The notes below the pieces were generated by a model that saw only the letters and a list, made by a program, of their open reading frames with translations, was not told the DNA's origin and did not search any database. This document shows, in pieces, positions 8,459-42,087 of a stretch of DNA of 64,000 nt. The number at the start of each line of letters is the position of its first letter. Position 1 is the stretch's first letter. The position numbers and the translations under genes are program-made. This DNA is from Moritella sp. 24 (GTDB taxonomy: Bacteria > Pseudomonadota > Gammaproteobacteria > Enterobacterales > Moritellaceae). The stretch covers positions 2,675,505 through 2,739,504 of the forward strand of contig NZ_CP056123.1 in NCBI RefSeq assembly GCF_018219155.1. Direction: 5' to 3'.

Positions 8459-8518
8459 TCCTTGATAACATAGCACTTCATGTGCATCCCCTTGTTATCG
8501 ATTGATGAGTCCGTCCGA

Positions 8519-9223
8519 ATGATAAAACAACAATTACACATTGCCCTCGTAGAAGATGAAATCAATATTGCTGAAAACTACCGTGATGCACTACAACGGA
8601 TCGGTTATCGCGTTTCACTCTTTCATAATCGCCAAGATGCACTCGCAGCTTTTACAATCTCATTACCTGATATGGCCATTATCGATGTTGGTTTACAAGA
8701 TGAGTACGAAGGTGGCTTTGATTTATGTCGCACCTTACGTCAACTTTCAGAAACACTACCCATTATATTTTTAACGGCTCGAAGCAGTGAATTAGACGAA
8801 ATATCAGCACTACGCCTAGGGGCTGATGATTATTTAACGAAAGATGTGAGCATCCACCAAGTATTAGCCCGTGTGTCTGCTCTTTTCCGTCGTATTCAAG
8901 CATTAAAAAAACCACAATCGGCAGATGAACAAGTTCTGACACGCGGTGCATTACGTATCAATATAGAACGTATTGAAACATATTGGCAAGATCAACCCGT
9001 CATATTAACCCTCACCGAGTTTTGGATTGTGCATACCCTTGCCAAACACCCCGGTCAGGTAAAAAATCGAGATCAACTGATGGATGCCGCCCATGTCGTA
9101 TTAGATAACAATACAATCACGACACATATTAAACGTATCCGTAAGAAATTTAATCTTATCGACGCTGAATTTAACGCGATTAAAACAGCCTACGGAATGG
9201 GTTATCGCTGGACTGTCGAGTGA
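8519..9223 (+). CDS. Response regulator, OmpR-like (PdsR-like)
   Basis: A 234-aa response regulator with an N-terminal receiver domain (acidic pocket VEDE, phospho-acceptor Asp56 in IIDVGLQ, conserved Lys in DDYLTKD) and a C-terminal winged helix ending TAYGMGYRW. Wording such as ENYRDALQRIGY and the whole layout resemble the regulator of the 'proteobacterial dedicated sortase' system as I remember it. ATG at 8519 is preferred over the upstream in-frame codon at 8480, because the receiver domain starts directly after it. It overlaps the kinase gene by 4 bp (GTGA), so the two are translationally coupled. Confidence 0.88.
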   Translation: MIKQQLHIALVEDEINIAENYRDALQRIGYRVSLFHNRQDALAAFTISLPDMAIIDVGLQDEYEGGFDLCRTLRQLSETLPIIFLTARSSELDEISALRLGADDYLTKDVSIHQVLARVSALFRRIQALKKPQSADEQVLTRGALRINIERIETYWQDQPVILTLTEFWIVHTLAKHPGQVKNRDQLMDAAHVVLDNNTITTHIKRIRKKFNLIDAEFNAIKTAYGMGYRWTVE

Positions 9224-11283
9224 TAACGCGCTTTAGCCTAAAAACACAACTGCTACTTGTTGCCAGCTTAATGTTATTACTGCCATGGGCTGGTTGCCAA
9301 AGTGTGAGCATCTTAGAAACGAGTTTACGTGAAAGTCACAGCAAATTACTTGATGTTCAACTCAATGCTGCCGCACAACAAATTGAACAAAAACTTAGCC
9401 AATCACATTATGCCAGCTTAAATACCAGTCAAGGTAACTATTACGCTCCACTCACTGATAGTAAAATGCTACTAGATGGATTCGATGGAGAAGAAAGTGA
9501 TTGGGAAAATATTGCAACACCTTGGTTTCAGCTCAACAATTATAACTATGATAATACAAATAATAGCTCGGGTAATGAAACCCTATTACGAACTGAAGAA
9601 CCAGCGCTGACAGCTGTTAAATTTAAGTTAGCGGCAAATAATAAACTACTCTATATCTTTATTCAGACCTCTGCATTAGAACCCCATTACTACAACCCCA
9701 TGCAACCACACCAAACTGCAGATCAGCTTAATATTCGCAGTATCAATAATACCGGTCTGATTTCACAATGGCAGATCAATCCGCAAGGTTCCGGTCGCGT
9801 AGAGATGCACAATATAAGCCAAGACATAAGACGAGATGCAGGCACTTGGTTATGGCGAGATGGTCACTATAATATTGAAATCGCCATACCGATTAATTTA
9901 GCGAATAACGCCATTGGTTTTGATCTCATCCTTAATGATCAAAAAGAAAATCAACATTTCAAATCAAAGCCAAGTACCACTTACGAACGTAGTTTAGTAC
10001 GTGAAAAATCCAATTTAAATCAGCAATTCACAGACTATATACAACCCGGTCTTAGCCTTTATTTACTGAACAGCCAATATTGGCTGATCGGACAGCTAAA
10101 TGCAGACCTCGATGATATTCAAGAAGATAAATCTTGGCTAAGCAATATGCTTTACAATAAATTATTTACTTCTAACGCATTACCTTATTGGCAAGAACCA
10201 ACAAATCTTGGCCGCTGGCTATCACCACAACAGCTGGAACAAACAACCTGGTATCAAGATTCTCCCATTAATAAACAACTACACAGTAAAACGATTACCG
10301 TGAATAGCCAACCCTATTACTTTGTGGCCGTCCAAGACTCAAGAAAAAGCCTGCTGTCTGCAAGTGAAGCGTTAAATCAATTACTGATTCTACTCTTTAC
10401 AATCATCGGAATCATTGTTTCAGCTTTATTCGCCTTTGCGTCGTTATTATCGTGGCGCATTGTTAAAATGAAGCAAAGCTATCGTGCTGCAATTGATAAT
10501 GACGGTAAGATAATTGCTGTACCAGAGGCCAGTACCCTACCAGATGAGTTAGGCGATCTATCCCGCGCAATGCAGCAACTCACGGTGAATCAGGGTAATT
10601 ACACCGATTATCTTGCTTCATTAGCAGATAAACTTTCCCATGAACTTAAAACTCCAATAGCCGTTATTCGCACCTCGTTAGAAAACTTAGAGTTATCAAA
10701 TTTAGATCCTGAAGCCAGTAAATACCTTACACGTGCGATGCAAGGAACAAATCGTTTAAGCCAAACACTAAATGCACTCAGTGAAGCGAACAAACTAGAG
10801 CAAAGTTTAGAATACGCTCAATTTCAAACCGTGCCATTTGAAGACATGTTAGAAGAACTAACCGAGGCCTATCGCCAAATTTATAATAGCCATCAGTTTA
10901 CACTCGCATATGAAAAAAACGTCGATTATACTATCAATCTAGCCCCCGAATTAATTGTGCAGCTCCTTGATAAATTAATCAGTAACGCTGTCGACTATTC
11001 CCCTACAAAAGATGCTATTTTGTTTAAATTAAGCAAACAAGGTAAACAATTACAACTCACAATTGAAAATCAAGGGCCGCACTTTAGTAGTCAAAATGTC
11101 ATGCAGCTATTTGATTCAATGGTATCAATACGTCAACAATCCGACACGCCCCACCTTGGTTTAGGGTTGCATATAGTGAAACTCATTAGTGATTTCCATC
11201 ATGCGAAAATAACAGCAAAGAACTTACCCGGTGATAAAGGGGTCATATTTGAACTATTATTACCAATAGAAAAGAGACAATGA
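9220..11283 (+). CDS. Sensor histidine kinase (PdsS-like)
   Basis: A 687-aa membrane histidine kinase that starts at GTG inside the regulator's stop codon. It has one N-terminal membrane helix (~residues 8-28), a ~350-residue periplasmic region, a second helix (~385-412), a HAMP-like linker, an H-box with His474 (DKLSHELKTPIAVIRTS), an N-box (LISNAVDYSP) and a G-box (LGLGLHIVKLISD). The periplasmic part carries a beta-rich block near residues 120-240 (FKLAANNKLLYIFIQTS) that may be a carbohydrate-binding-like sensor; this is inferred. The size and ...LLLPWAGCQ... start resemble the dedicated-sortase kinase. No sortase gene lies nearby. Confidence 0.88.
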   Translation: MITRFSLKTQLLLVASLMLLLPWAGCQSVSILETSLRESHSKLLDVQLNAAAQQIEQKLSQSHYASLNTSQGNYYAPLTDSKMLLDGFDGEESDWENIATPWFQLNNYNYDNTNNSSGNETLLRTEEPALTAVKFKLAANNKLLYIFIQTSALEPHYYNPMQPHQTADQLNIRSINNTGLISQWQINPQGSGRVEMHNISQDIRRDAGTWLWRDGHYNIEIAIPINLANNAIGFDLILNDQKENQHFKSKPSTTYERSLVREKSNLNQQFTDYIQPGLSLYLLNSQYWLIGQLNADLDDIQEDKSWLSNMLYNKLFTSNALPYWQEPTNLGRWLSPQQLEQTTWYQDSPINKQLHSKTITVNSQPYYFVAVQDSRKSLLSASEALNQLLILLFTIIGIIVSALFAFASLLSWRIVKMKQSYRAAIDNDGKIIAVPEASTLPDELGDLSRAMQQLTVNQGNYTDYLASLADKLSHELKTPIAVIRTSLENLELSNLDPEASKYLTRAMQGTNRLSQTLNALSEANKLEQSLEYAQFQTVPFEDMLEELTEAYRQIYNSHQFTLAYEKNVDYTINLAPELIVQLLDKLISNAVDYSPTKDAILFKLSKQGKQLQLTIENQGPHFSSQNVMQLFDSMVSIRQQSDTPHLGLGLHIVKLISDFHHAKITAKNLPGDKGVIFELLLPIEKRQ

Positions 11284-11332
11284 TGGTGACGTAACAACAT
11301 CCCCCTCACTCTCATCATCGAGGAGGAATGCT

Positions 11333-11998
11333 ATGCTAATACGCCCTATTGCAAAACGTAATGGTGTGACGGTTACGATCGTTGCAGTGCTGTTTATTTT
11401 CAGTAGTATCATCGCACTACTAACAACCTCCACGGATAACGGTTACTACCTCTACTTCCCCCTGTTAGCAGGCTCGCTTATTATTGGCATTTGTTTACTC
11501 ATCATTGGTATCGTTAAAATCAATGACATGTATTACCGGTTTTCACTGACTAAAGAAGGACTGCATTATTTCACTTCGCGAGGGGGTTTTACTATCCTCT
11601 GGCAAGATATTCAACGCATCGATATCCCCAAGATAAATGATGGCTTAGCGTTAAAAGAATTACCTTATATCGGTATTCGACTTAATCAACGGGAGCATCT
11701 TATTAATAGCGCATCATTGCCCACTTTATCGCATATGCTGCTAGAACAAAGAGCCCTTATTATGCTCACAGATCCAAACTCAAGCCTCTACGGTAATGCC
11801 GATAACATGCTCTATCCTGATATAAAAGTAACCCATAAATATCAAGGATTACAGGCCATGTTTATCAACCGAATGCAGTATCTTCACAATACGCTTGGCT
11901 ATGATATTTACTTTCCCAACGACGATCTTGACCGCCCTCCTGCAGAATTTGTTCAACTATTACGCGAGTTTAAAACAGATTGTTCTAGATCATTATAA
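11333..11998 (+). CDS. DUF2982 family membrane protein
   Basis: A 221-aa protein with two N-terminal membrane helices and a cytoplasmic domain. I recognise DUF2982 from ILWQDIQRIDIPK, LKELPYIGIRLNQ and MFINRMQYLHNTLGYDIYFP. The family is found in Vibrio, Shewanella and relatives, and its function is unknown to me. It has a textbook AGGAGG ribosome binding site and follows the kinase gene by 49 bp, so it likely belongs to the same operon and may modulate or accompany the two-component system. Confidence 0.8.
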   Translation: MLIRPIAKRNGVTVTIVAVLFIFSSIIALLTTSTDNGYYLYFPLLAGSLIIGICLLIIGIVKINDMYYRFSLTKEGLHYFTSRGGFTILWQDIQRIDIPKINDGLALKELPYIGIRLNQREHLINSASLPTLSHMLLEQRALIMLTDPNSSLYGNADNMLYPDIKVTHKYQGLQAMFINRMQYLHNTLGYDIYFPNDDLDRPPAEFVQLLREFKTDCSRSL

Positions 11999-12046
11999 AT
12001 AGTAATAATTATCAATTAGAGTTGCATTAAACATTTTTATATGGAT

Positions 12047-12104: not shown

Positions 12105-14126
12105 GTGAAAAAATCTGCCCTCTGCTTCGCTATCTCTTCTGCGTTACTTTCTGCTGCATTTACAACTCAAGCTGCAAACGTAAAAGTTCTTGATAAAACA
12201 CTTTCTCCTGCTGCAAACTTTCTTGCATACACAGAATTTGAATTATCAGGCGAACCTCTTGCTGAATCTCTAGGTCTAGACCTTGACGTTTTAGACCCAA
12301 ACCAAGTAGACCAACCAACTGCATTCGATTATGCAGCAGGTATTGAAAGCTACGAGTACTCAGAAGAAGCGATGTACGCGTTAAACTACCAGTCTACTAT
12401 GGGTCCACACCTAGTAAACGGTCCAGTTAACCAAGCGCGCGGCGGTTCTCTTGCTGACTTAGGTAAACGTTTCATCTCTCTTGCGGGTGCTGTAGGCTTC
12501 CCAAGTGAAGAGATTCCACTAAACATGTACCCTATCTCTGTACCATACGTATCAGGTAACCCTGAGTTCGTAGGTAAAGTAGATACTACTAAAGTGAATG
12601 GCGAAGCGTTAGAAGTATTATCTGCAACAGGTAAAGCAGCAGTTCACAACACAGTGATTCCAGCTTACTTCCGTGACTACAAAACACTAGCATGGGACAG
12701 CGCAAGTTTCGATAAAGCATTAAACCCAGGCGCAATCGGCAGCATCTTCCTTAAAGAAGTTATGTGGTCACAAGATTTCCTAGGTGGCATGCACGTTACA
12801 ACAACAGATGAAGAAGTTGAAGCCACATCAAGCACTATGGATCAAAATGGCGTACACAGTCTTGGTGTATCTGCTGCCGATGGTTTCAACGGTATGATCT
12901 TAACTGAAATGTCACTAGACAAACTACTTATCCTGCAACAGCAACTTGGCTTTGACGGTAAGAACCTAGGTGTTAAGTTCGGTCCTGACTACGATGCATC
13001 TAAAAACCCAATCTGGTTTGCACACAAAGTAGCAGTGAAAGAAACACAGAAAAACAACGTAAATAACATCGGCAAACTATCTGTAACTGATGGTTCATCA
13101 TCACTACGTGATACGTGGATGCTATTATGGCCAGTAAGTGAATTCTATGCATTCACTGATCAACGTACTGCGAACACTGCACAAAACCCAGCGTTTAAAG
13201 CTGTATTTGACGGCAAACCATTTGCTGCTGCACCAAAACAAAACATCGATAACAAAACAAGTAACAATATCATTGCTGACGATGCATTCTCTGTTGCAAG
13301 CAACGTTGCTAACCTATCGTTCCAAAACTTAGCAAACCTACATTTCAACAAGAAAGCAGGTACTTTTGTTACTAAGTTCGACGGTAAGCAAAACGCACAA
13401 GTTGATACATTTGACGCTGCATACAGCATCGTAGCACTATCAATTTACCAACGTTCACAAGATGCACTACCTGTTGGTTATGCTGCGGCAGACGGCGGTG
13501 ATGTTGACCTAGCTACTCCTCAAGGTAAACAAGCACTTGGTCTAATCAAAGCACAAGCAGATTACATCGTTAATACGTTAGTAGCTAAAAACGGCCTAGT
13601 ATACGATGGCGCGACGATTGGTAAATCAGTAGATAAAAACCAATCACTTGACGCACAGTTTGCTGCTATTCGTGGTTTAGTTTCTGCTTACCTTGCAACT
13701 CAAGATGATTCTTACAAGCAAGCGGCACGTTCTATCTTCCTAGCTGTAGAGAAAAACATGTTCGATGCTAAATTAGGTACTTGGGCACAAACCCCAGGTA
13801 AAGCAACAATTCACACACCGTTAACTGCTGCAGCAATTTCTGGTGGTTTACGTGAAACAATGCTTCACCTAGCTAACGAAGAAGGCGAACACGTACCAGC
13901 GCTAGAACTACAACACTTAACAGAGCGTTACACAGCTTGGTTCAAGAAAGTAGTTAACGGTGGCCAACAGTTATCAGAATGGGTTGGTGATTCAGGTGAA
14001 AACTTACTGAAAAACAGCTCAACTACCGATTCAGATAATGATGGTGTACAACAAGTAACAGCGGCTGGCGGTAAATACGGTACAGCACAAACAATGGCAG
14101 CAAAAGTGTCGGTTAGTGCAAACTAG
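12105..14126 (+). CDS. Large secreted protein of unknown function (673 aa)
   Basis: I do not recognise this protein. It has a clear signal peptide cleaved after TQA (~residue 23). The mature ~650 residues have an N-terminal half with DPNQVDQPTAFDYAAG and VNQARGGSLADLGKR, and an alanine-rich helical C-terminal half (~430-620) that could form an alpha/alpha barrel (QFAAIRGLVSAYLATQDDSY). Unlike its neighbours it uses almost only the preferred codons (GGT, CGT, AAC, CTA, GTA), suggesting very high expression. It starts at GTG after an AAAAGGA ribosome binding site, has a Fur-like box upstream, and heads the FTR1/cytochrome locus. A role in iron or copper handling, or in glycan binding, is only inference. 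Confidence 0.8.
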   Translation: MKKSALCFAISSALLSAAFTTQAANVKVLDKTLSPAANFLAYTEFELSGEPLAESLGLDLDVLDPNQVDQPTAFDYAAGIESYEYSEEAMYALNYQSTMGPHLVNGPVNQARGGSLADLGKRFISLAGAVGFPSEEIPLNMYPISVPYVSGNPEFVGKVDTTKVNGEALEVLSATGKAAVHNTVIPAYFRDYKTLAWDSASFDKALNPGAIGSIFLKEVMWSQDFLGGMHVTTTDEEVEATSSTMDQNGVHSLGVSAADGFNGMILTEMSLDKLLILQQQLGFDGKNLGVKFGPDYDASKNPIWFAHKVAVKETQKNNVNNIGKLSVTDGSSSLRDTWMLLWPVSEFYAFTDQRTANTAQNPAFKAVFDGKPFAAAPKQNIDNKTSNNIIADDAFSVASNVANLSFQNLANLHFNKKAGTFVTKFDGKQNAQVDTFDAAYSIVALSIYQRSQDALPVGYAAADGGDVDLATPQGKQALGLIKAQADYIVNTLVAKNGLVYDGATIGKSVDKNQSLDAQFAAIRGLVSAYLATQDDSYKQAARSIFLAVEKNMFDAKLGTWAQTPGKATIHTPLTAAAISGGLRETMLHLANEEGEHVPALELQHLTERYTAWFKKVVNGGQQLSEWVGDSGENLLKNSSTTDSDNDGVQQVTAAGGKYGTAQTMAAKVSVSAN

Positions 14127-14156
14127 TCTCACCCTTTTGGCAATAGATAGCCATCT

Positions 14157-14203
14157 CGTAACACTTAGTTAATCTCGATGTATTAATTAATGAAAGTGTT
14201 ACG
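14157..14203. repeat. Inverted repeat CGTAACACTT / AAGTGTTACG
   Basis: Two perfect 10-bp arms flank 27 bp of AT-rich sequence just upstream of the terminator that follows the 673-aa gene. It could stabilise the mRNA 3' end or be an operator for the next genes. Confidence 0.5.
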
Positions 14204-14220
14204 AAATTAAAATAAAAGTT

Positions 14221-14262
14221 GCAAAAAAGGGATGAGATTTTACTCAGCCCTTTTTGCGTTTT
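14221..14262 (+). terminator. Terminator after the 673-aa secreted-protein gene
   Basis: GCAAAAAAGGG pairs with CCCTTTTTGC around an AT-rich loop, followed by GTTTTC. It probably gives partial termination, separating the highly expressed first gene from the following FTR1 genes. Confidence 0.7.
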
Positions 14263-14291
14263 CATTCCGTCGATATGAATAAGGTTTTATC

Positions 14292-14774
14292 ATGTCAGTT
14301 CAAGTTGCAACCCCAACCGGTGATAACATCTGGTCACGTTTACAGAATCATTTTAAACGTCTCGCTTTTCATCATAAAAAAGCCGAAGCTATATTATATG
14401 TGATGTTCCTGTCAGGACTTTTACTGTGGCCATTTATTACTATTCCATGGCAAATAGAGCGCACCGTATTACTGATGCACATGCTTGCTGGTATTAGTAT
14501 ATTTCCTGTTTTCGTGGGTAGTTTCTGGCTGTCGCATCGTAACCTTATTCAAAACAGTAAAAAGAAATTCTTGCGCCAAACCGGTACCATTATAGAATAC
14601 TTACTCGTTGCCTGTACCCTTACGGGTGTTTACCTTACTTTTTGGGGAAACACAGGTAATAACTTCAGTATTTTAATGCAAGATATTCATTTTTACAGCT
14701 CGTGGCTACTTGCCCCTCTCGTTCTTCGTCATGCATGGCGCTGGACAGTGATCAAATTTTTTAGGAAGTCTTAA
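14292..14774 (+). CDS. Four-helix membrane protein, cytochrome b561-like
   Basis: A 160-aa integral membrane protein with four predicted helices (~34-52, 66-88, 105-125, 135-155). Histidines sit inside helices two (LLMHMLAG) and four (QDIHFYSSWLL, VLRHAWRW), the arrangement expected for b-heme ligation in small b561/DUF4405-type cytochromes. It ends 1 bp before the FTR1 gene, so the two are one translational unit. I infer that it passes electrons across the membrane for iron redox chemistry; heme binding is not proven by sequence alone. Confidence 0.72.
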   Translation: MSVQVATPTGDNIWSRLQNHFKRLAFHHKKAEAILYVMFLSGLLLWPFITIPWQIERTVLLMHMLAGISIFPVFVGSFWLSHRNLIQNSKKKFLRQTGTIIEYLLVACTLTGVYLTFWGNTGNNFSILMQDIHFYSSWLLAPLVLRHAWRWTVIKFFRKS

Positions 14775-14775
14775 T

Positions 14776-15612
14776 ATGTTTGCCAGTTTTTTAATTACCT
14801 TTCGTGAAGGACTTGAAGCCTTCCTACTTGTTGGCATTATACTTTCTTACCTTGCCAAGCTTGGTGAATCAAAACACAACAAACTCATCTACATTGGTGT
14901 AGCCCTGGGCTTAGTGGCTTCATTAATTGTCGCTTTCATTTTTCAGTTTGTAGTCGACCAATTTGATTCTCATGAATACCGTAACTTATTAATGGCGGGT
15001 ATCTTAGGCTTTGCGACCTTGGTGCTGACTTATATGGCGATTTGGATGCAACGCCAAGCGAAAAGCCAAGTATCAAACATGCAGAACAACATCCGTGAAA
15101 TATTAACCACAGGCAACGTTTTTGGCTTAATCTTTTTAGCCTTCCTTGCGGTTATGCGCGAAGGATTTGAAACCGTATTATTCTTCTCTGCCTTAATGTA
15201 CTCAGGACAAGGTGACTTTTCACTACAGGATGGTTTGATTGGTGCTGGTGCAGGTCTTATTGCATCACTTGTACTCGTTATCGTACTAATGCGCGGCACA
15301 CGTAAAGTACCGCTACAAGCATTCTTTAAGTGGACAAGCTTGTTAATTATCATTATTGCCGCAGGTCTATTATCATCTGCGAGTAACATGTTACAAAGTG
15401 CAGACATACTACCAGTATTCCAAACAGCCGTATTTGATATCAGCCATATCCTTGATGACCAAGGTGTATTCGGCACTTTCTTACGTGCTTTATTTGGTTA
15501 TAATTCATCACCAAATTTATTACCACTTGTGGTTTGGTTCGTTTATTTAGCAATATTCTCTGTACTTTGGCATCGTGGATATCAAGTACCAGCTAAAACA
15601 GCCGAAGCTTAA
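14776..15612 (+). CDS. FTR1 family high-affinity iron permease
   Basis: A 278-aa, seven-helix membrane protein of the FTR1/EfeU family that imports iron coupled to ferrous oxidation. Both REXXE motifs are present: REGLE at residues 10-14 and REGFE at 128-132; these bind ferric iron in the yeast and bacterial homologues. The gene follows the b561-like gene immediately. There is no EfeO or EfeB partner nearby; the redox partners here would instead be the b561-like protein and the multiheme cytochrome of the same locus. Family assignment is secure, the electron path is inference. Confidence 0.92.
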   Translation: MFASFLITFREGLEAFLLVGIILSYLAKLGESKHNKLIYIGVALGLVASLIVAFIFQFVVDQFDSHEYRNLLMAGILGFATLVLTYMAIWMQRQAKSQVSNMQNNIREILTTGNVFGLIFLAFLAVMREGFETVLFFSALMYSGQGDFSLQDGLIGAGAGLIASLVLVIVLMRGTRKVPLQAFFKWTSLLIIIIAAGLLSSASNMLQSADILPVFQTAVFDISHILDDQGVFGTFLRALFGYNSSPNLLPLVVWFVYLAIFSVLWHRGYQVPAKTAEA

Positions 15613-15696
15613 CTTAAAAATAAAAGAGTGTCGGATCTGAATAGTACTAACCTAGTTAGATCCCGCATATGAAAAATATTAATCATTGAGTAGATA

Positions 15697-17139
15697 ATGT
15701 CGAAACAAATTGTAATTTTAGGCGCAGGTCCTGCTGGACTAATGGCCGCATGGGAATTTAATCAAGCCGGTTACCAAGTAACTATCCTAGAACGTGAAGA
15801 GTTTGTTGGTGGCATGTGCGCAACGCAAACTTTCCAAGGTGAAAAAGGTGAGTACCGCTTTGATTACGGTGGTCATCGCTTTATTACTAAAAACCCGAAA
15901 TTATTACAGTTTATCGATGAATTAATGACTGATGATCTGCTCTATGCAGAACGTACTAGTGTGATCCGTTTTAAAGGGCGTACCTACAACTATCCACTTG
16001 CGATTGGTAATTTATTACGTAATGCACCGCTCAGTTTATTAGCTGGCGCAGCTGTCGATTTGGTATTCAAACTACCCTTCCAAAAACGCCCAAGTGAGCA
16101 AAGTACCAGTAACTTTGCAGAATGGATTGAAACACGTTTTGGTACAACCTTATACAAAAATTTCTTCGAAGGCTATACAGGTAAACTTTGGGGGATCGAC
16201 CCACGTCAACTATCTGCTGATTGGGCATCGCAACGCATCAGCTTATTAGATCTAAAAGATGTGGCACGACGCTTAATTCCAACTCGCGGTGCAACACCAC
16301 GTACCTATGCGAAGAAATATCGTTACCCTAAGCTCGGCTTTGGCCAGATGTACACCAAACTTGCTGAAAAACTGCAAGCGCAAGGTGTAACGATTGTGCA
16401 AGGCGCCAACATTACTGCGTTGCAACGTAGTGAACACAACATTGATGCCGTCACCTATGAACTTAATGGAGAAACGCTGTCAATTAAATGTGATCACGTC
16501 GTCGGTACGATTCCTTTACCTGTTGTTTGTACATTAACAGGCTTCGATTCAGGTCTAACTTACCGTTCTCTTCGTTTCTTCAACATGCCAATGGCGACCG
16601 AAAACGTATCGCAGAACACGTGGCAATACCTGTCTGATCCCGAATTACTTGGTACTCGCTTGCAAGAGCCTCGCCGTCGTTCACCATTCATGGCACCAAA
16701 AGGTCAAACATCAGTCATGATCGAGATCCCGTGCGACAAGGGCGATGACGTCTGGAACATGGATAACAACAAACTATTAAAACGCGTAAAAGAAGATCTA
16801 AACCATCTTGATGTGCCAGATGTAAGTACGGGTGAATTCTTTACCACATATACCGAATACGCTTATCCGATGATGGACGTAAGCTATAACGCTAAACGTG
16901 AACGTGCAATCACTCATCTTAACCAATTTGACAACTTAGTGATGACAGGTCGCCAAGGTACTTTCCGTTACATCTTTACTGATACTGCGATGGAAATGGG
17001 CTTGATGGCGGCAGAAGGGATTATTAAGGGTGAAGATAACCGCCGCCAGATCTTCGATCACCGTAACGAAAAAACAGTGATTGAAGTACAAAGCATTATG
17101 GATGATAAAAAAACACCAGAGGGAAAAAATGTCGCTTAA
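15697..17139 (+). CDS. FAD-dependent amine-oxidase-like oxidoreductase
   Basis: A 480-aa flavoprotein with an N-terminal dinucleotide-binding GAGPAGLMAAWEF motif (residues ~8-20) and the second conserved block YGGHRFITKNPKL. The region FFEGYTGKLWGIDPRQLSAD is typical of the UDP-galactopyranose mutase/protoporphyrinogen oxidase-like branch often found near glycosyltransferases. No signal peptide is visible, so it is cytoplasmic. It overlaps the next gene by 11 bp. The neighbour two genes on is a GT-C-like protein, so it may act on a lipid-linked sugar; a redox role tied to FTR1 is the alternative. Confidence 0.82.
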   Translation: MSKQIVILGAGPAGLMAAWEFNQAGYQVTILEREEFVGGMCATQTFQGEKGEYRFDYGGHRFITKNPKLLQFIDELMTDDLLYAERTSVIRFKGRTYNYPLAIGNLLRNAPLSLLAGAAVDLVFKLPFQKRPSEQSTSNFAEWIETRFGTTLYKNFFEGYTGKLWGIDPRQLSADWASQRISLLDLKDVARRLIPTRGATPRTYAKKYRYPKLGFGQMYTKLAEKLQAQGVTIVQGANITALQRSEHNIDAVTYELNGETLSIKCDHVVGTIPLPVVCTLTGFDSGLTYRSLRFFNMPMATENVSQNTWQYLSDPELLGTRLQEPRRRSPFMAPKGQTSVMIEIPCDKGDDVWNMDNNKLLKRVKEDLNHLDVPDVSTGEFFTTYTEYAYPMMDVSYNAKRERAITHLNQFDNLVMTGRQGTFRYIFTDTAMEMGLMAAEGIIKGEDNRRQIFDHRNEKTVIEVQSIMDDKKTPEGKNVA

Positions 17140-17737
17140 ACAACTAACCAGAACCAATCTAACCGCATTTATCTTAAGCTTTTTTGTCTTGTTATTTAGT
17201 GCGCAAAGTTTTGCTTATTCTTATGCCGCGGCGGGTAAAGAGCCATTAATTGAGGGTCGAGAAGCCTTATTAAAAGCCTTATCGGCAAATGATTATAGTG
17301 CTGTACAAACTGCCTATGATTCGATGCAGAAAGAGTTCGTTTATTTTAACGAGCACCATGGGCTTGCTGTCGATGAACAAATGCAAACAGCAATCACCAA
17401 CAAAGACCAACAAGGTGTCGCCACCGCACTCATCACCACGATAAAAGCAGAAGTAATGCGTCGTCTTGAAGGTGCAGAACAAAACATCAATGACTATCAA
17501 GTGGCGAAAGTATTAGTAGTCAAAAGTAAATTGTTTATTGATTTACTTGCCGCAGATCTAACGGCTGACAATCGTAAAAAGGCTGATACCGCTATTCGAG
17601 GCGCACTTGCGTCTATCGGTAATCCTGGTGTATTTGGTGTAGGTCAAAAGCCAGCAGACGTAACACGCTTTATTGCATTCCGCACCGATTTACAAACTGC
17701 ATTACAATTTATATTGCCAGATGCGCCAACTCAGTAA
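17129..17737 (+). CDS. Periplasmic helical protein of unknown function
   Basis: A 202-aa protein with a signal peptide cleaved after SFA (~residue 28), then an almost wholly alpha-helical mature part with EGREALLKALSANDYSAVQT, FNEHHGL and EVMRRLEGAEQ. I do not recognise a family. ATG at 17129 was chosen: it has a GAGGG ribosome binding site and directly precedes the signal peptide, and it overlaps the 3' end of the oxidoreductase gene. Its gene also overlaps the next gene by 17 bp, so the three are a coupled set. The size and helicity resemble periplasmic accessory domains attached to some FTR1 proteins, which is inference. Confidence 0.75.
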   Translation: MSLKQLTRTNLTAFILSFFVLLFSAQSFAYSYAAAGKEPLIEGREALLKALSANDYSAVQTAYDSMQKEFVYFNEHHGLAVDEQMQTAITNKDQQGVATALITTIKAEVMRRLEGAEQNINDYQVAKVLVVKSKLFIDLLAADLTADNRKKADTAIRGALASIGNPGVFGVGQKPADVTRFIAFRTDLQTALQFILPDAPTQ

Positions 17738-19121
17738 GCCTTGGTATTCTGATTTAATAGCCTGCATTAGCTTAATCGCTTGTATTGCAGGCTATTTTGG
17801 TTTACTTAATTATTATAGTTTTGATATTAGCAGTGATGATGCGCTCTATTTTCAGCGTGCATTAACTTACTTTTCCGTATTAGAATTCAGCCCACACTTC
17901 CCGGGCTACCCCGGTTTTGTTTGGTTTGAACGTATCATTGCTGCAATAAGTTCACACCCCAATAGCAATGTCTTATTAAGCTTTCTATCTGCTATCGCTT
18001 TAACCGTGAGCGTCTTTGTTTATTGCCATCGATGCATGCACATAAAAGGATTTGCACTCTTTGCTGTCTTGCTTTTTCTACTGCAAGGCAATATTGCTGA
18101 GTTAGCCTTTAATGGCTTGTCTGATGCAACTGCGCTGTGGTTCTTTAGCTTGTATTTATTGCAAACACACCTTTACACACACCCTATTTCTCAGTCCGCA
18201 TCCAAACATACATGCTCAGCGTTAATGAGTGGTTTATTATTGGCTGCATGCCTCGCTACTCGCCCCTCTTATTTACCTTTAGTGGCCAGTGCAATGGTTT
18301 TAGAACTAGCTTTTCACGCTAAACGGCAACGATACAAGCGACTAGGATGGCAATTATTAAGCATCTCTGTCGTCGGGTTATTCTGTGCCGGATACGTTTT
18401 TATGCAAGATGGTTGGGCATATATTGAAGAAGGTCAACGTTTTACCCAAGGTCACTTTGCTATTTGGGGAAATACCACAAGTTCACCTGACTCCCTATTG
18501 CAACAATGGCTAACAACCTTAACGGATACCTACTCAAGCTTAGGGCTCATATTATTAACCACGAGTTTACTAATAGGGCTATACGTACCAAAAACGCGTG
18601 GACTCAGTATACTAGCCTGCTGCTGGTTTGCATGGATCATCCGTGGACAAAATCCAGAAAACATTCGTCATTTAGCTGTTTTCAGTTTGTTATTACCCAT
18701 TATTACGGCTCAACTAGTCGAACACTTTTATCAACAACAACGCATTCGCCCAATGCTATACACGATCAGTATTATATTATTTATCACTCTGGGTTATCAC
18801 AGCCTCAATCAATTCACCGTTCAAAAAAATGCGCCAGTATCACAAGCGAGTCATTTTTTTAATACGATGGATGAGCAACAAATTATTATCAGTAATTATA
18901 ATATTGATAATTTGCGTCATACTTTACCGCAGCACGTAATTTTAGATCGCCATTATCAAAGCAGCAGTAACTACCAAGCCCAACAGCAAGGCTACTGGCG
19001 ACTGAGTAGTAATAAGCTGAATAACGAAAAGACAGTTAAGCAATTTAAAGGACGATTTCTTGGCGAAAGAGATTTATACCTCTATTATTTTGATCTTAAT
19101 CATTTTAGCCGTCAAACATAA
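17721..19121 (+). CDS. GT-C type membrane glycosyltransferase-like protein
   Basis: A 466-aa multi-spanning protein starting at the ATG at 17721 inside the preceding gene. The first extracytoplasmic loop has an acidic pair, Asp39-Asp40 in SSDDALYF, followed by HFPGYPGFVWF. This is the layout of polyprenyl-phosphate-sugar dependent GT-C enzymes (ArnT/PMT-like). About ten hydrophobic helices follow, then a C-terminal soluble tail. It would transfer a sugar to a lipid or protein in the periplasm. Substrate unknown; the secreted 673-aa protein or the cytochrome are possible targets only by proximity. Confidence 0.7.
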   Translation: MRQLSKPWYSDLIACISLIACIAGYFGLLNYYSFDISSDDALYFQRALTYFSVLEFSPHFPGYPGFVWFERIIAAISSHPNSNVLLSFLSAIALTVSVFVYCHRCMHIKGFALFAVLLFLLQGNIAELAFNGLSDATALWFFSLYLLQTHLYTHPISQSASKHTCSALMSGLLLAACLATRPSYLPLVASAMVLELAFHAKRQRYKRLGWQLLSISVVGLFCAGYVFMQDGWAYIEEGQRFTQGHFAIWGNTTSSPDSLLQQWLTTLTDTYSSLGLILLTTSLLIGLYVPKTRGLSILACCWFAWIIRGQNPENIRHLAVFSLLLPIITAQLVEHFYQQQRIRPMLYTISIILFITLGYHSLNQFTVQKNAPVSQASHFFNTMDEQQIIISNYNIDNLRHTLPQHVILDRHYQSSSNYQAQQQGYWRLSSNKLNNEKTVKQFKGRFLGERDLYLYYFDLNHFSRQT

Positions 19122-19155
19122 CCGCAAATATTGCACTCTTATCTCAAACAGATAT

Positions 19156-19174
19156 AATGATAACAATTCTTAAT
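19156..19174. promoter_or_regulatory. Fur-like box upstream of the multiheme cytochrome gene
   Basis: AATGATAACAATTCTTAAT agrees with the 19-bp Fur consensus at about 15 positions, and with 11 of 14 arm positions of the 7-1-7 form. It lies 37 bp before the ATG. This is the better of the two Fur-like boxes in the locus. Confidence 0.55.
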
Positions 19175-19210
19175 CGTAATACCCTTCCCCCTATCAAGAT
19201 GCTGTAATCT

Positions 19211-22147
19211 ATGAACATAAATTTTTTGCCTAAATTAATATGCGCGTTGCTATTGTTAGCAAGCCACTCCCTTTATGCCAATACAAAAAGTAACAGTTTA
19301 CTGCTGTCTGTAGATAAAACGCAGTTTATCAGTGCTAATATGGATGCGGGTAGCGTCAGTATTCTCAACGCAGAAAGTGGCGAGTTATTAAAAGAACAAA
19401 CATTAGGGAAAGACTTACGCCGTCTTGCATTAGATCCGATTAACAACCAACTGCTCGTCAGCGATTATCTTGCGAATCAACTTTACTTAATTGATGCTAA
19501 AAGCCTTAAATTAATCAAAACAATTAAAACGGGCGATCGCCCTTTCGGCATTGTCTATGACGAATATAATAAGCAATATTACGTTACATTATTTGAAGAA
19601 AAAGCATTATTAACGCTTTCGACCGATGGTGAAATTACAGCAACGACTCAAACGGCTGATACGCCCCGTGGCCTAGCCCTCGCTGATGATGGACGCTTAT
19701 TCGTTACGCACAGCATGACGGGACAAGTGTCTATTTATAATACCCGTTCAGCTAATTCACAATTAAACACGCTACAATTAAAAAAAGTCATTCAACTTGC
19801 CGATACAGCACAACATGCATCCCGTGCAACACCGCAGGGTAAACCACGTGTTTTAGATAACATTGCAATATCACCCGACGGTACGCAAGCTTGGCTCCCC
19901 CATGTATTATGGTCGTTTTCGCAAGATTTTCATTTTCAATCGACTGTATTTCCAACAATATCTTTACTTGACCTAACGCCGGGTAAAGAAAAAGAATTAG
20001 TTGATAAACGTAAGCAACTATTCAAACAAATTAACATCATCGAGAACAATAACACCACACGTATTATCTCCAACCCACATGATGTGGCTTTCCGAGAAGA
20101 CGGTAAAAAAGTATTTATTACTCTCTCGGGTTCAGAAGATTTATTAGTGTTTGATCTATCACGCCAAGGTAAAATTGGTAAAAAGTCTAAACGTCACCGC
20201 CGTACTAAATTGCAAGGTGGTGTTAAAGCGACACAAATTTATCGTCATATTCCGGGAACAAACCCACGCAGCATGATCGCAAAAGATGGCACGCTATATG
20301 TTCAAAATGCCATGTCTCACGACTTAGTTAGTTTTGATATTAGTGGGCAAGGTCCTTTTGCTAAAGTTAAACTGGCTAACGCACAATTTGCGAAATTAAT
20401 TAGCAAGGACCCTATCGCACCAGAGTTACGCTTAGGTAAAACATTGTTTAACCTTGCTAATAGCGATAAGTTTGAAAACAGCGCCATGTCAGGTGATTTC
20501 TGGATGAGCTGTAACTCTTGCCATGTTGACGGCTTTAACTTTACTAACAAATACTTATTAGCTGACGGTACTAAAGACGTTAAAGTAAATGCAATGACTG
20601 GTCACATTGGCTTATCCTCTATGATTGCGGGTGATCCTATCGAGGCTTATATTGATATGATCCAAAAAACCCAAGGTGGCATGGGCACAGATCCGAAAAA
20701 ACCAGAATTACCAAAAATAGATCCAAAATCCCCACCTGCCGATGTTGTGCGCTTAATGTCAGCGTTGAATTTGTACGTGACAACGAAAGAAAACTTACCG
20801 TATTTGTCAACCTGGTTACGCTTCGATGATGACCGTAAGTTCACTCACAAATCGGAATGGTTGAACTCTGCAAGTTGTGAATCATGCCATAGCACCCTTT
20901 ACAAGCAATGGTCTAATTCTAACCACGGGATGCACATGGATAGTCCTTACTATCGCTTCCAAGAGAATCTTGCAGCAGAAGCTGAAGGTGAACCGTTTAG
21001 AAATCTATGCCGAGGCTGCCATGCACCGCAAACGATTCTAAACAACAATACCGCACCACTGACTCACCTTAGTAATATGTATGAGAAAGAAGGTCAATCA
21101 CTGCGTGATGCGCTTAAAGAAGGCTTGCCAGTTGATGAGACAGGAACAAGTTGCGTGTTCTGTCACCGTATCACCAAGGCAGAAGATGCTGGCGGTAATA
21201 CCGACCTGACAGTTAACTTAAAGGATCGTGCTGAGTACTTGTTTGAATTTTCGAGTAATCCAGCATTAAAATTCATCGCAGAAGCACAAATAAATGCTTC
21301 ACCACAGCAGCACAAAGACAGCTATTCAAAGCCAGATCTGTACAAGAGCTCATTATACTGTGCGACCTGCCATAATGAATTCACCCCAGGCCAAGGTGCT
21401 AATGTAAATAATAACTACGGTGAATGGCAAGCATCTAAGTTTAATGCGCCAGACAATCCTGAACAGAACAAAACCTGTATCGATTGCCACATGCGTATGG
21501 AAATGACTGATTTTGATAAGAAAACACCAGGTCAAGCAACTGATAATGGTCCTATTAAACCGAACTTAATCGCGCATAACTTTATTGGTGGTAATTACTA
21601 CTTCTCTGATATGCGCTCTAAAGAACACGGTAAACTCAGTCGTGATATTTTACGTAACGCCCTGCTACTTGATGTTGAAGCGAGCGAAGATGGTCGTAGT
21701 ATCGACGTTAAAGTAACGAATCACAATACCGGTCATAAAATGCCAGGTGGTGCTCGCCGTCAAGTTTGGGTTGATTTAGTCGTTACTGACAGTAAAGGTG
21801 TTGAACGTCTAGTCAGTGGTCAGCTTAATGATGGTTACTTACCAAAAGACAGTCGTGTATTCGCTAAAAAATCCGGTTACATGCACGGTGAACCTGTGGG
21901 CCTTAAATTCTGGCGCGTAGAAAAAATTCTAGCTGATACTCGTATTTCTCCCGATGAAACACGCGTAGAATCATTTGAGCTACCTGAGGATATAAGTTAT
22001 CCAATCACAGTTGTCGCTAAAATTAACTACCGCTCGTTCTCGAAGCCATTAACGAGTAAAGTGCAAGCAGCCTTCCCAGATCAGAATATTCCATTTGCGG
22101 ATGTTGTAGAGCTGAATAAAATAACGAAAGTATTTAATCAAAAATAG
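19211..22147 (+). CDS. Beta-propeller multiheme c-type cytochrome (six CXXCH)
   Basis: A 978-aa exported protein with a signal peptide (~1-23), an N-terminal YVTN/lactonase-like beta-propeller (~30-410, for example GDRPFGIVYDEYNKQYYV and DTPRGLALADDGRLFVT) and a C-terminal cytochrome region. CXXCH heme sites begin at Cys434, 556, 600, 648, 717 and 756. The last ~200 residues (EVKVTNHNTGHKMPGG-like block near 840) look like a beta-sandwich seen in some cytochrome c552/c554-type proteins. It is probably periplasmic or surface-exposed and takes or supplies electrons. A Fur-like box lies upstream, and the FTR1 locus precedes it on the same strand. Confidence 0.88.
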   Translation: MNINFLPKLICALLLLASHSLYANTKSNSLLLSVDKTQFISANMDAGSVSILNAESGELLKEQTLGKDLRRLALDPINNQLLVSDYLANQLYLIDAKSLKLIKTIKTGDRPFGIVYDEYNKQYYVTLFEEKALLTLSTDGEITATTQTADTPRGLALADDGRLFVTHSMTGQVSIYNTRSANSQLNTLQLKKVIQLADTAQHASRATPQGKPRVLDNIAISPDGTQAWLPHVLWSFSQDFHFQSTVFPTISLLDLTPGKEKELVDKRKQLFKQINIIENNNTTRIISNPHDVAFREDGKKVFITLSGSEDLLVFDLSRQGKIGKKSKRHRRTKLQGGVKATQIYRHIPGTNPRSMIAKDGTLYVQNAMSHDLVSFDISGQGPFAKVKLANAQFAKLISKDPIAPELRLGKTLFNLANSDKFENSAMSGDFWMSCNSCHVDGFNFTNKYLLADGTKDVKVNAMTGHIGLSSMIAGDPIEAYIDMIQKTQGGMGTDPKKPELPKIDPKSPPADVVRLMSALNLYVTTKENLPYLSTWLRFDDDRKFTHKSEWLNSASCESCHSTLYKQWSNSNHGMHMDSPYYRFQENLAAEAEGEPFRNLCRGCHAPQTILNNNTAPLTHLSNMYEKEGQSLRDALKEGLPVDETGTSCVFCHRITKAEDAGGNTDLTVNLKDRAEYLFEFSSNPALKFIAEAQINASPQQHKDSYSKPDLYKSSLYCATCHNEFTPGQGANVNNNYGEWQASKFNAPDNPEQNKTCIDCHMRMEMTDFDKKTPGQATDNGPIKPNLIAHNFIGGNYYFSDMRSKEHGKLSRDILRNALLLDVEASEDGRSIDVKVTNHNTGHKMPGGARRQVWVDLVVTDSKGVERLVSGQLNDGYLPKDSRVFAKKSGYMHGEPVGLKFWRVEKILADTRISPDETRVESFELPEDISYPITVVAKINYRSFSKPLTSKVQAAFPDQNIPFADVVELNKITKVFNQK

Positions 22148-41589: not shown

Positions 41590-42087
41590 TTAATCAAATG
41601 GACGATCTATAACACACAGTTCACTAAGGCTTAGGATCTGTTGATAGTCATCCCTCATTTCTCGCGTCGATAAATGAGGCGTAAACCAAATGGCATTCAA
41701 GCCTGCTTCAATCGCAGGAAGGATGTCTCGATGCATCAAATCACCAACCATCGTCACCTCACTCGCTTTTGTGTCGAGTTTTTCGATAATAGCTTGATAA
41801 TAAGCCGCCGTCCCTTTACCAATACCTAAGTTTGCTTGGCAAAAATAACCTGATATAAAGGTGTCTAGCCCAACTCGTTCAAATGCAATTCGAATATCTT
41901 CCATACTGGAGTCTCCAGCACCAGTCGCCACATACAGTTTACAACCCTGTTGTGATAACGTCGTTAACATCTCAAGTGCACCACTGATAGCTTCAACATG
42001 TTCCCATAGACACATTTTACCTTTCATTTCTGGCGGGTTGACCATCAAAGTATCACCCCAATCAAACAAATAAATCTTAGTCATCAC
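41590..42087 (-). CDS. HAD-superfamily hydrolase
   Basis: A 165-aa HAD phosphatase-like protein. Motif I is LFDWGDTL (nucleophile Asp near residue 9), motif II is VATGAG, and motif III/IV is MVGDLMHRDI. The cap is small. The substrate is unknown. It is a single gene in the accessory run. Confidence 0.83.
   Translation of the reverse strand: MMTKIYLFDWGDTLMVNPPEMKGKMCLWEHVEAISGALEMLTTLSQQGCKLYVATGAGDSSMEDIRIAFERVGLDTFISGYFCQANLGIGKGTAAYYQAIIEKLDTKASEVTMVGDLMHRDILPAIEAGLNAIWFTPHLSTREMRDDYQQILSLSELCVIDRPFD

Follow-up and report, generated by a model that had tools for sequence, protein, structure and literature searches.

A seven-gene locus of Moritella combining an FTR1-family permease with cytochrome-like and putative glycan-related genes

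FTR1 permeases and the composition of the locus

FTR1 permeases are considered to depend on an oxidising partner; those known to us are copper oxidases, the peroxidase EfeB or P19-type proteins, as in EfeUOB, FtrABCD and yeast Fet3/Ftr1. FtrABCD, FetMP and P19-cFtr1 combine an FTR1 permease with a periplasmic iron protein, and FtrABCD also has an oxidase and a membrane electron carrier. Another arrangement is the cytochrome c-FTR1 fusion, in which a c-type heme is tied to the permease itself. For example, among the sampled genomes of the order, one of family f15 has the open reading frame L077:1360-3327, which encodes an FTR1 permease with REXXE motifs, fused to a cytochrome c-like part with one CXXCH and to a helical part, and plasmid records, such as those of Croceicoccus and Sphingobium, are annotated 'cytochrome c/FTR1 family iron permease'. 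Such fusions are a precedent for heme partners of FTR1. The excerpt of PMC9174327 consulted here describes EfeUOB/EfeUOB-M as consisting of the permease, the peroxidase EfeB and the periplasmic EfeO/M, and it also names FtrABCD, FetMP and P19-cFtr1.

In the present study, we analysed a stretch of 64,000 nucleotides of Moritella sp. 24 (hereafter the window), which contains a locus of seven genes, A-B-C-D-E-F-G, all on the + strand (12105-22147 of the window, Table 1). A previous description made from the letters of the DNA only (the sequence-only reading) reported seven same-strand genes, several of them overlapping, and they were found at the places described: the overlap of D and E is 11 bases, that of E and F is 17 bases if the ATG at 17721 is the start of F, and the gap between B and C is a single base. 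The hairpin between A and B, followed by a T-rich tail, is a likely intrinsic terminator; it was missing from the sites given by a terminator scan. The genes directly 5' of the locus (8480-11998) are those for a response regulator, a histidine kinase and a DUF2982 protein. The kinase resembles that of the 'proteobacterial dedicated sortase system' (432.9 bits, below the cut-off), and the kinase and DUF2982 genes adjoin the locus in all seven other Moritella loci compared (L018-L024), not in L014-L017.

Table 1. Features of the seven-gene locus (positions in the window)
Feature	Position	Strand	Description
Fur-box-like site TAGTAATAATTATCA	12000..12014	+	12 of 14 defined positions of a Fur consensus; 105 bases 5' of gene A
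Gene A	12105..14126	+	Secreted protein, 673 aa, without Pfam family; N-terminal part acidic and conserved
Hairpin, then T-rich tail	14221..14257	+	Likely intrinsic terminator between A and B; -16.6 kcal/mol
Gene B	14292..14774	+	Membrane protein, 160 aa, b-type cytochrome-like; invariant His 63, 82, 133 and 147
Gene C	14776..15612	+	FTR1 permease with two REXXE motifs; separate clade
Gene D	15697..17139	+	FAD protein; NF005547 (PRK07208.1-3) above cut-off; closest solved structures are UDP-galactopyranose mutases
Gene E	17129..17737	+	Periplasmic helical protein, 202 aa, without family
Gene F	17721..19121	+	Polytopic membrane protein, GT-C-like (invariant SDDAL and HFPGYP regions)
Weak Fur-box-like site before G	19158..19172	+	11/14; not evidence alone (7/48 ORF starts of the window reach 11 or more)
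Gene G	19211..22147	+	Secreted beta-propeller protein, 978 aa, six CXXCH

The assignment of C as an FTR1 permease with two REXXE motifs, made in the sequence-only reading, is correct: C matches the FTR1 model PF03239 with an E-value of 2.9e-47 (161.8 bits against a cut-off of 25.3), and the motifs begin at residues 10 and 128. It is the sole FTR1 found in the genome to which the window belongs. With the EfeU equivalog model, C scored 207.4 bits, below the cut-off of 255. In profile scans of the seven locus genes and thirteen other genes of the window, no EfeB, EfeO, M75, P19, cupredoxin or copper oxidase was found. The locus resembles EfeUOB/EfeUOB-M of E. coli and Pseudomonas syringae in having an FTR1-family permease with periplasmic partners; it differs in that EfeB, EfeO and M75 are absent from the 20 scanned genes and in that C lies under the EfeU cut-off and in a separate clade. 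With FtrABCD, FetMP and P19-cFtr1 it shares the pairing of an FTR1 permease with other proteins, whereas it has no match to P19 or cupredoxin, has hemes in the place of copper, and has an additional, putative glycan arm. In contrast to the L077 fusion, with a single heme motif in one polypeptide, the locus encodes a separate six-heme propeller protein. We therefore did not assign the locus to EfeUOB, FtrABCD, FetMP or P19-cFtr1, since the score of C is below the EfeU cut-off and the partners of these systems are absent from the twenty genes scanned. The unfamiliar partners hint at an undescribed route of iron import. No description of this locus was found in an open-access library, outside which most subscription journals lie.

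Distribution and gene order

Each gene was used as a query against the same 119 genomes of the order, representing 59 genera. Whether homologues of the seven genes travel together had been proposed as a check on the sequence-only reading, and they do: A, B, E and F each have matches in 12 genomes, the same 12 in every case, and matching C, D and G are present in all of these. For G, any match was observed in 24/119 genomes, of which 12 were full-length (at least 1780 bits), the next best being 116 bits. D had matches in 104/119 genomes, mostly short and in the nucleotide-binding part, and these are so widespread because the FAD fold is shared; 12 genomes have a protein with 61-100% identity over nearly all of D, and the next has 24%. 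FTR1 was found in 36/119 genomes, 12 of which have an FTR1 of one clade, that of C (support 97/94), in a tree of 26 rows, comprising the window and 25 of 29 loci (four had no suitable ORF, and matches lacking a locus were left out), with a long-branch warning that includes the row nearest to the clade of C. Full-length relatives of all seven genes are thus in the same 12/119 genomes, belonging to 3/59 genera and to three families, which include Moritella and Aeromonas: eight genomes are of genus g1 (Moritella), one is of genus g11 (G036), and three are of genus g35 (the Aeromonas group). The grouping of the seven genes is more than chance. Four named Moritella records were found with gene B, at 91-96% identity.

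The order A-B-C-D-E-F-G is found in the Moritella loci and in G036. The three Aeromonas-group loci all have the order B-G-C-D-E-F. There, A is separate from the cluster, at a distance of about 83 kb in G067 and of 46 kb in G116, and it is on a different contig in G047. The g35 locus L015 matches Aeromonas caviae NZ_AP026896.1, a 4.9-Mb entry of a plasmid collection (89% over 75% of the locus length), and g35 is evidently Aeromonas or very near to it. In the same A. caviae sequence, searched with A, C, D, E and G, relatives of G, C, D and E lie in a row and that of A is about 80 kb off. That A is retained even where it is not linked to the cluster is the strongest indication that all seven genes belong to a single system. 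In genus g11, the full set is present in only one of the six sampled genomes, G036, which suggests transfer. The set is known from only three lineages, and thus from few independent events, which counts against the functional reading that we prefer below. A copy of A was also observed on Aeromonas plasmids, one of which is pMCR5_045096 (L153:9935-13268 and L154:7935-11268), beside glgC and with ISAs12 on both sides; apparently, this is a chromosomal piece that has moved to plasmids.

Features of the encoded proteins

Gene B had been called b561-like. Its four histidines are invariant in all four aligned rows, even in a 25%-identical protein of another family, and on visual inspection they are arranged as two pairs within two hydrophobic segments. 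These pairs fit a two-heme b-type cytochrome, and B may accordingly bind two hemes; no Pfam model passed its cut-off with B (best DUF4405, E-value 0.0076, weakly in 4/7 members). L028:4079-4489, a lone distant relative of B from another family of the class, keeps the four histidines, and no FTR1 was seen on its contig; thus, the small cytochrome-like family of B has other settings.

The description of G as a beta-propeller hexaheme cytochrome agrees with six CXXCH motifs at residues 434, 556, 600, 648, 717 and 756, invariant in 7/7 aligned relatives. Residues 27-564 of G align, with 35% identity, with a 651-aa protein containing two CXXCH encoded on a plasmid of Anoxybacillus amylolyticus. This relative scored 130.9 bits with the hydrazine synthase beta model, 126.8 with the beta-gamma fusion, 62.6 with MbnH and 41.2 with MauG, all below the cut-offs, and its RoxA-like and CCP_MauG Pfam domains are above the cut-offs. 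The five-heme tail of G resembles ExtKL (43.8 bits, below the cut-off). As judged from these similarities, G is a chimera of a hydrazine-synthase-beta/MauG-type front and a five-heme tail. Proteins of the hydrazine synthase beta-gamma/MbnH/MauG superfamily have a propeller followed by a MauG/CCP-type heme site, like the front of G; G keeps this front and one such heme, whereas the five-heme tail replaces the second MauG-type domain. G was also considered as a two-domain di-heme enzyme of the MauG, MbnH or hydrazine synthase gamma type, and this was rejected because only residues 27-564 align with the Anoxybacillus relative. According to the part of PMC12758564 consulted, hydrazine synthase beta-gamma homologues are prevalent in environmental bacteria, including Bacillus.

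On the same Anoxybacillus plasmid (pDSM15939_1, L152:11881-15979), the gene for the propeller-diheme protein directly follows that for a relative of A, which is 42% identical over 95% of A. By eye, both proteins have lipoprotein-like signal ends, and the pair adjoins genes for a zinc ABC substrate-binding protein and a GTP-binding protein. No FTR1 is annotated in 12 kb on either side, and when B, C, D, E and F were compared by BLAST with six proteins of this neighbourhood, the only match was at chance level, that of E to the relative of A (0.035). The association of A with a G-like protein therefore need not concern FTR1. A and the front of G look like an earlier partnership; FTR1, B, D, E and F would either have joined it later or have been lost from it in Bacillota.

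In A itself, 211 of the 673 positions are invariant over nine rows, most densely at residues 51-100, where many are Asp and Glu. The C-terminal part is weakly similar to GlcNAc-2-epimerases (best E-value 0.029, in 3/8 members), and the structure model of A failed (pLDDT 34.5). In codon usage, A is closer to rpsA (0.615) than any of the 24 other genes measured, rpsA being the sole yardstick. Together with the hairpin and T-rich tail that follow the gene, this codon usage indicates that A is probably produced in larger amounts than the rest of the locus.

The closest solved structures of D are UDP-galactopyranose mutases (E-value 2.7e-18, over residues 3-281 of D). D stays under the UDP-GALP_mutase equivalog cut-off (66.6 bits against 303.75) and passed the cut-off of NF005547 instead. 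UDP-galactopyranose-mutase-like is a better reading than the earlier name 'FAD oxidoreductase' in view of the nearest structures. Relatives of D in a plasmid collection, at 1e-40, are in seven records, one from Aeromonas, one unannotated, and five that were examined; all of the five have glycosyltransferase or GtrA genes within 5 kb. For F, neither a family model above its cut-off nor a match among solved structures was found. F, which had been called GT-C-like, is a putative GT-C protein as judged from its topology and from the SDDAL and H-F-P-G-Y-P motifs, invariant in 7/7, which resemble those of GT-C proteins. The resemblance of D to UDP-galactopyranose mutases, the location of its relatives near glycosyltransferases and the GT-C-like nature of F suggest that D and F form a glycan arm. 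E was described as a periplasmic helical protein, consistent with its confident helical model (pLDDT 84.5), for which the structure matches were generic bundles only.

Fur-box-like sites and possible function

Upstream regions were scored against a Fur consensus with 14 defined positions. A Fur-box-like site lies 5' of A at -104 to -115 in 8/8 Moritella genomes (11-13 of 14), and in G036 a differing sequence scoring 12/14 lies 132 bases 5' of A. In the Aeromonas group, 3/3 loci have an 11/14 site 74-78 bases 5' of B. Thus, as far as matches to this consensus go, such a site is upstream of the first gene in all three lineages. With two mismatches or fewer, the genome to which the window belongs has 167 such sites, against 70 for the reversed pattern. 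Among the 160-base regions 5' of ORF starts in the window, 2/48 have 12/14 or more (those of A and of the gene at 41590-42087) and 7/48 have 11/14 or more. In the G036 locus, 12/14 was reached at 1/14 ORF starts, which is A. In the Aeromonas loci, 11/14 was reached at 1/34, an opposite-strand ORF adjacent to the site described above, gene B not being among the scored ORFs. Of 400 random 250-base stretches each, 12 or more was obtained in 3 for the window and in 0 to 16 or 17 for the other Moritella loci. The predicted sites are modest evidence that fits iron regulation. Points against the preferred reading are that single Fur-like sites are weak and that, in 3/3 Aeromonas-group genomes, the 250 bases 5' of A contain no Fur-like site that reaches 11 of 14. 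A perfect 14/14 match was observed approximately 1 kb before A in two of these three genomes (e.g., L047:505-519). The excerpt of PMC9503180 consulted reports two c-type cytochromes, given by accession (A0A6N4CR45 and A0A6N4CND1), that are induced by iron limitation in A. salmonicida.

The reading that we prefer, at somewhat less than an even chance, is that the locus encodes a Fur-regulated FTR1 iron uptake system in which electrons travel through hemes, the multiheme protein G and the b-type-cytochrome-like B replacing the copper oxidase, and which also includes an arm for glycan modification. Periplasmic Fe(II) would be bound by A and/or E and oxidised at the MauG/CCP-type heme of G (the first CXXCH). 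The electron would pass along the five other hemes of G to the two proposed hemes of B and then to quinone, and Fe(III) would be passed to permease C. D and F would supply a sugar decorating an exported component, possibly A. In this scheme, the substrate, the direction of electron flow, the hemes of B and the target of glycosylation are what we infer. The sequence-only reading had offered iron uptake either by a new electron path or linked to a glycoprotein; the co-occurrence of the genes, the Fur-like sites and the absence of known partners from the 20 window genes partly support this proposal, and the locus seems to combine an electron arm (B and G) and a glycan arm (D and F), not one or the other. 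Against the preferred reading, it would be surprising for a cell short of iron to make a protein with six hemes, and in profile scans A and E matched no recognised iron-binding family. A more specific version is doubtful: a copper-free FTR1 importer whose ferroxidase is a chimeric propeller-multiheme cytochrome of hydrazine-synthase-beta/MauG descent, acting with the undescribed family A, also its partner in Gram-positives, and with a dedicated glycan arm required for the exported parts.

Electrons might flow in the opposite direction, from quinol to B and on to G, which would then reduce periplasmic ferric iron or its chelates before uptake by FTR1. Some eukaryotic b561 proteins are ferric reductases, B is a membrane protein with four histidines, and the multiheme tail of G weakly resembles Mtr/ExtKL-type cytochromes. 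However, in the FTR1 systems known to us uptake is linked to oxidation and not to reduction, and G is similar in its front part to MauG/CCP and hydrazine synthase proteins, most clearly in the Anoxybacillus relative; we therefore consider this direction unlikely. It is also unlikely, to a similar degree, that A is the working protein, a metal binder or enzyme, and that G modifies it oxidatively as a maturase of the MauG/MbnH kind, with FTR1 and B supplying iron and electrons and D and F glycosylating A. The adjacent genes on the Anoxybacillus plasmid, the sub-cut-off scores of that diheme protein with the hydrazine synthase beta-gamma, MbnH and MauG models, the top codon similarity of A, and the invariance of 4 Trp, 11 Tyr and 4 His of A in 9/9 rows would all agree with such a role, whereas G is without the second heme domain of MauG type that is present in the Anoxybacillus protein, and it carries five further hemes.

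FTR1 might instead be a passenger in an envelope-glycan or respiratory operon, the co-occurrence reflecting one transferred operon. The glycan genes around the relatives of D and the small number of independent lineages agree with this, and the presence of the set in 1/6 sampled g11 genomes is what a transfer would produce. However, the set persists despite an altered gene order and despite the location of A outside the cluster, and FTR1 is retained in 12/12 genomes, which makes this explanation improbable. That C carries a metal other than iron is more improbable still: membership of the FTR1 family alone is no proof of iron, as a lead-transporting member exists, but Fur-like sites are present in all three lineages.

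If the preferred reading, iron uptake through FTR1 with a heme-based electron path, is true, the coupling of iron import to respiration would be of a different kind, relying on six c-type hemes and a membrane b-type cytochrome, and it would occur in marine psychrophiles and Aeromonas, among other bacteria. Furthermore, the preferred reading would provide the first functional setting for the secreted family A, which is absent from Pfam, and, outside anammox bacteria, for proteins of the propeller-MauG-like type.
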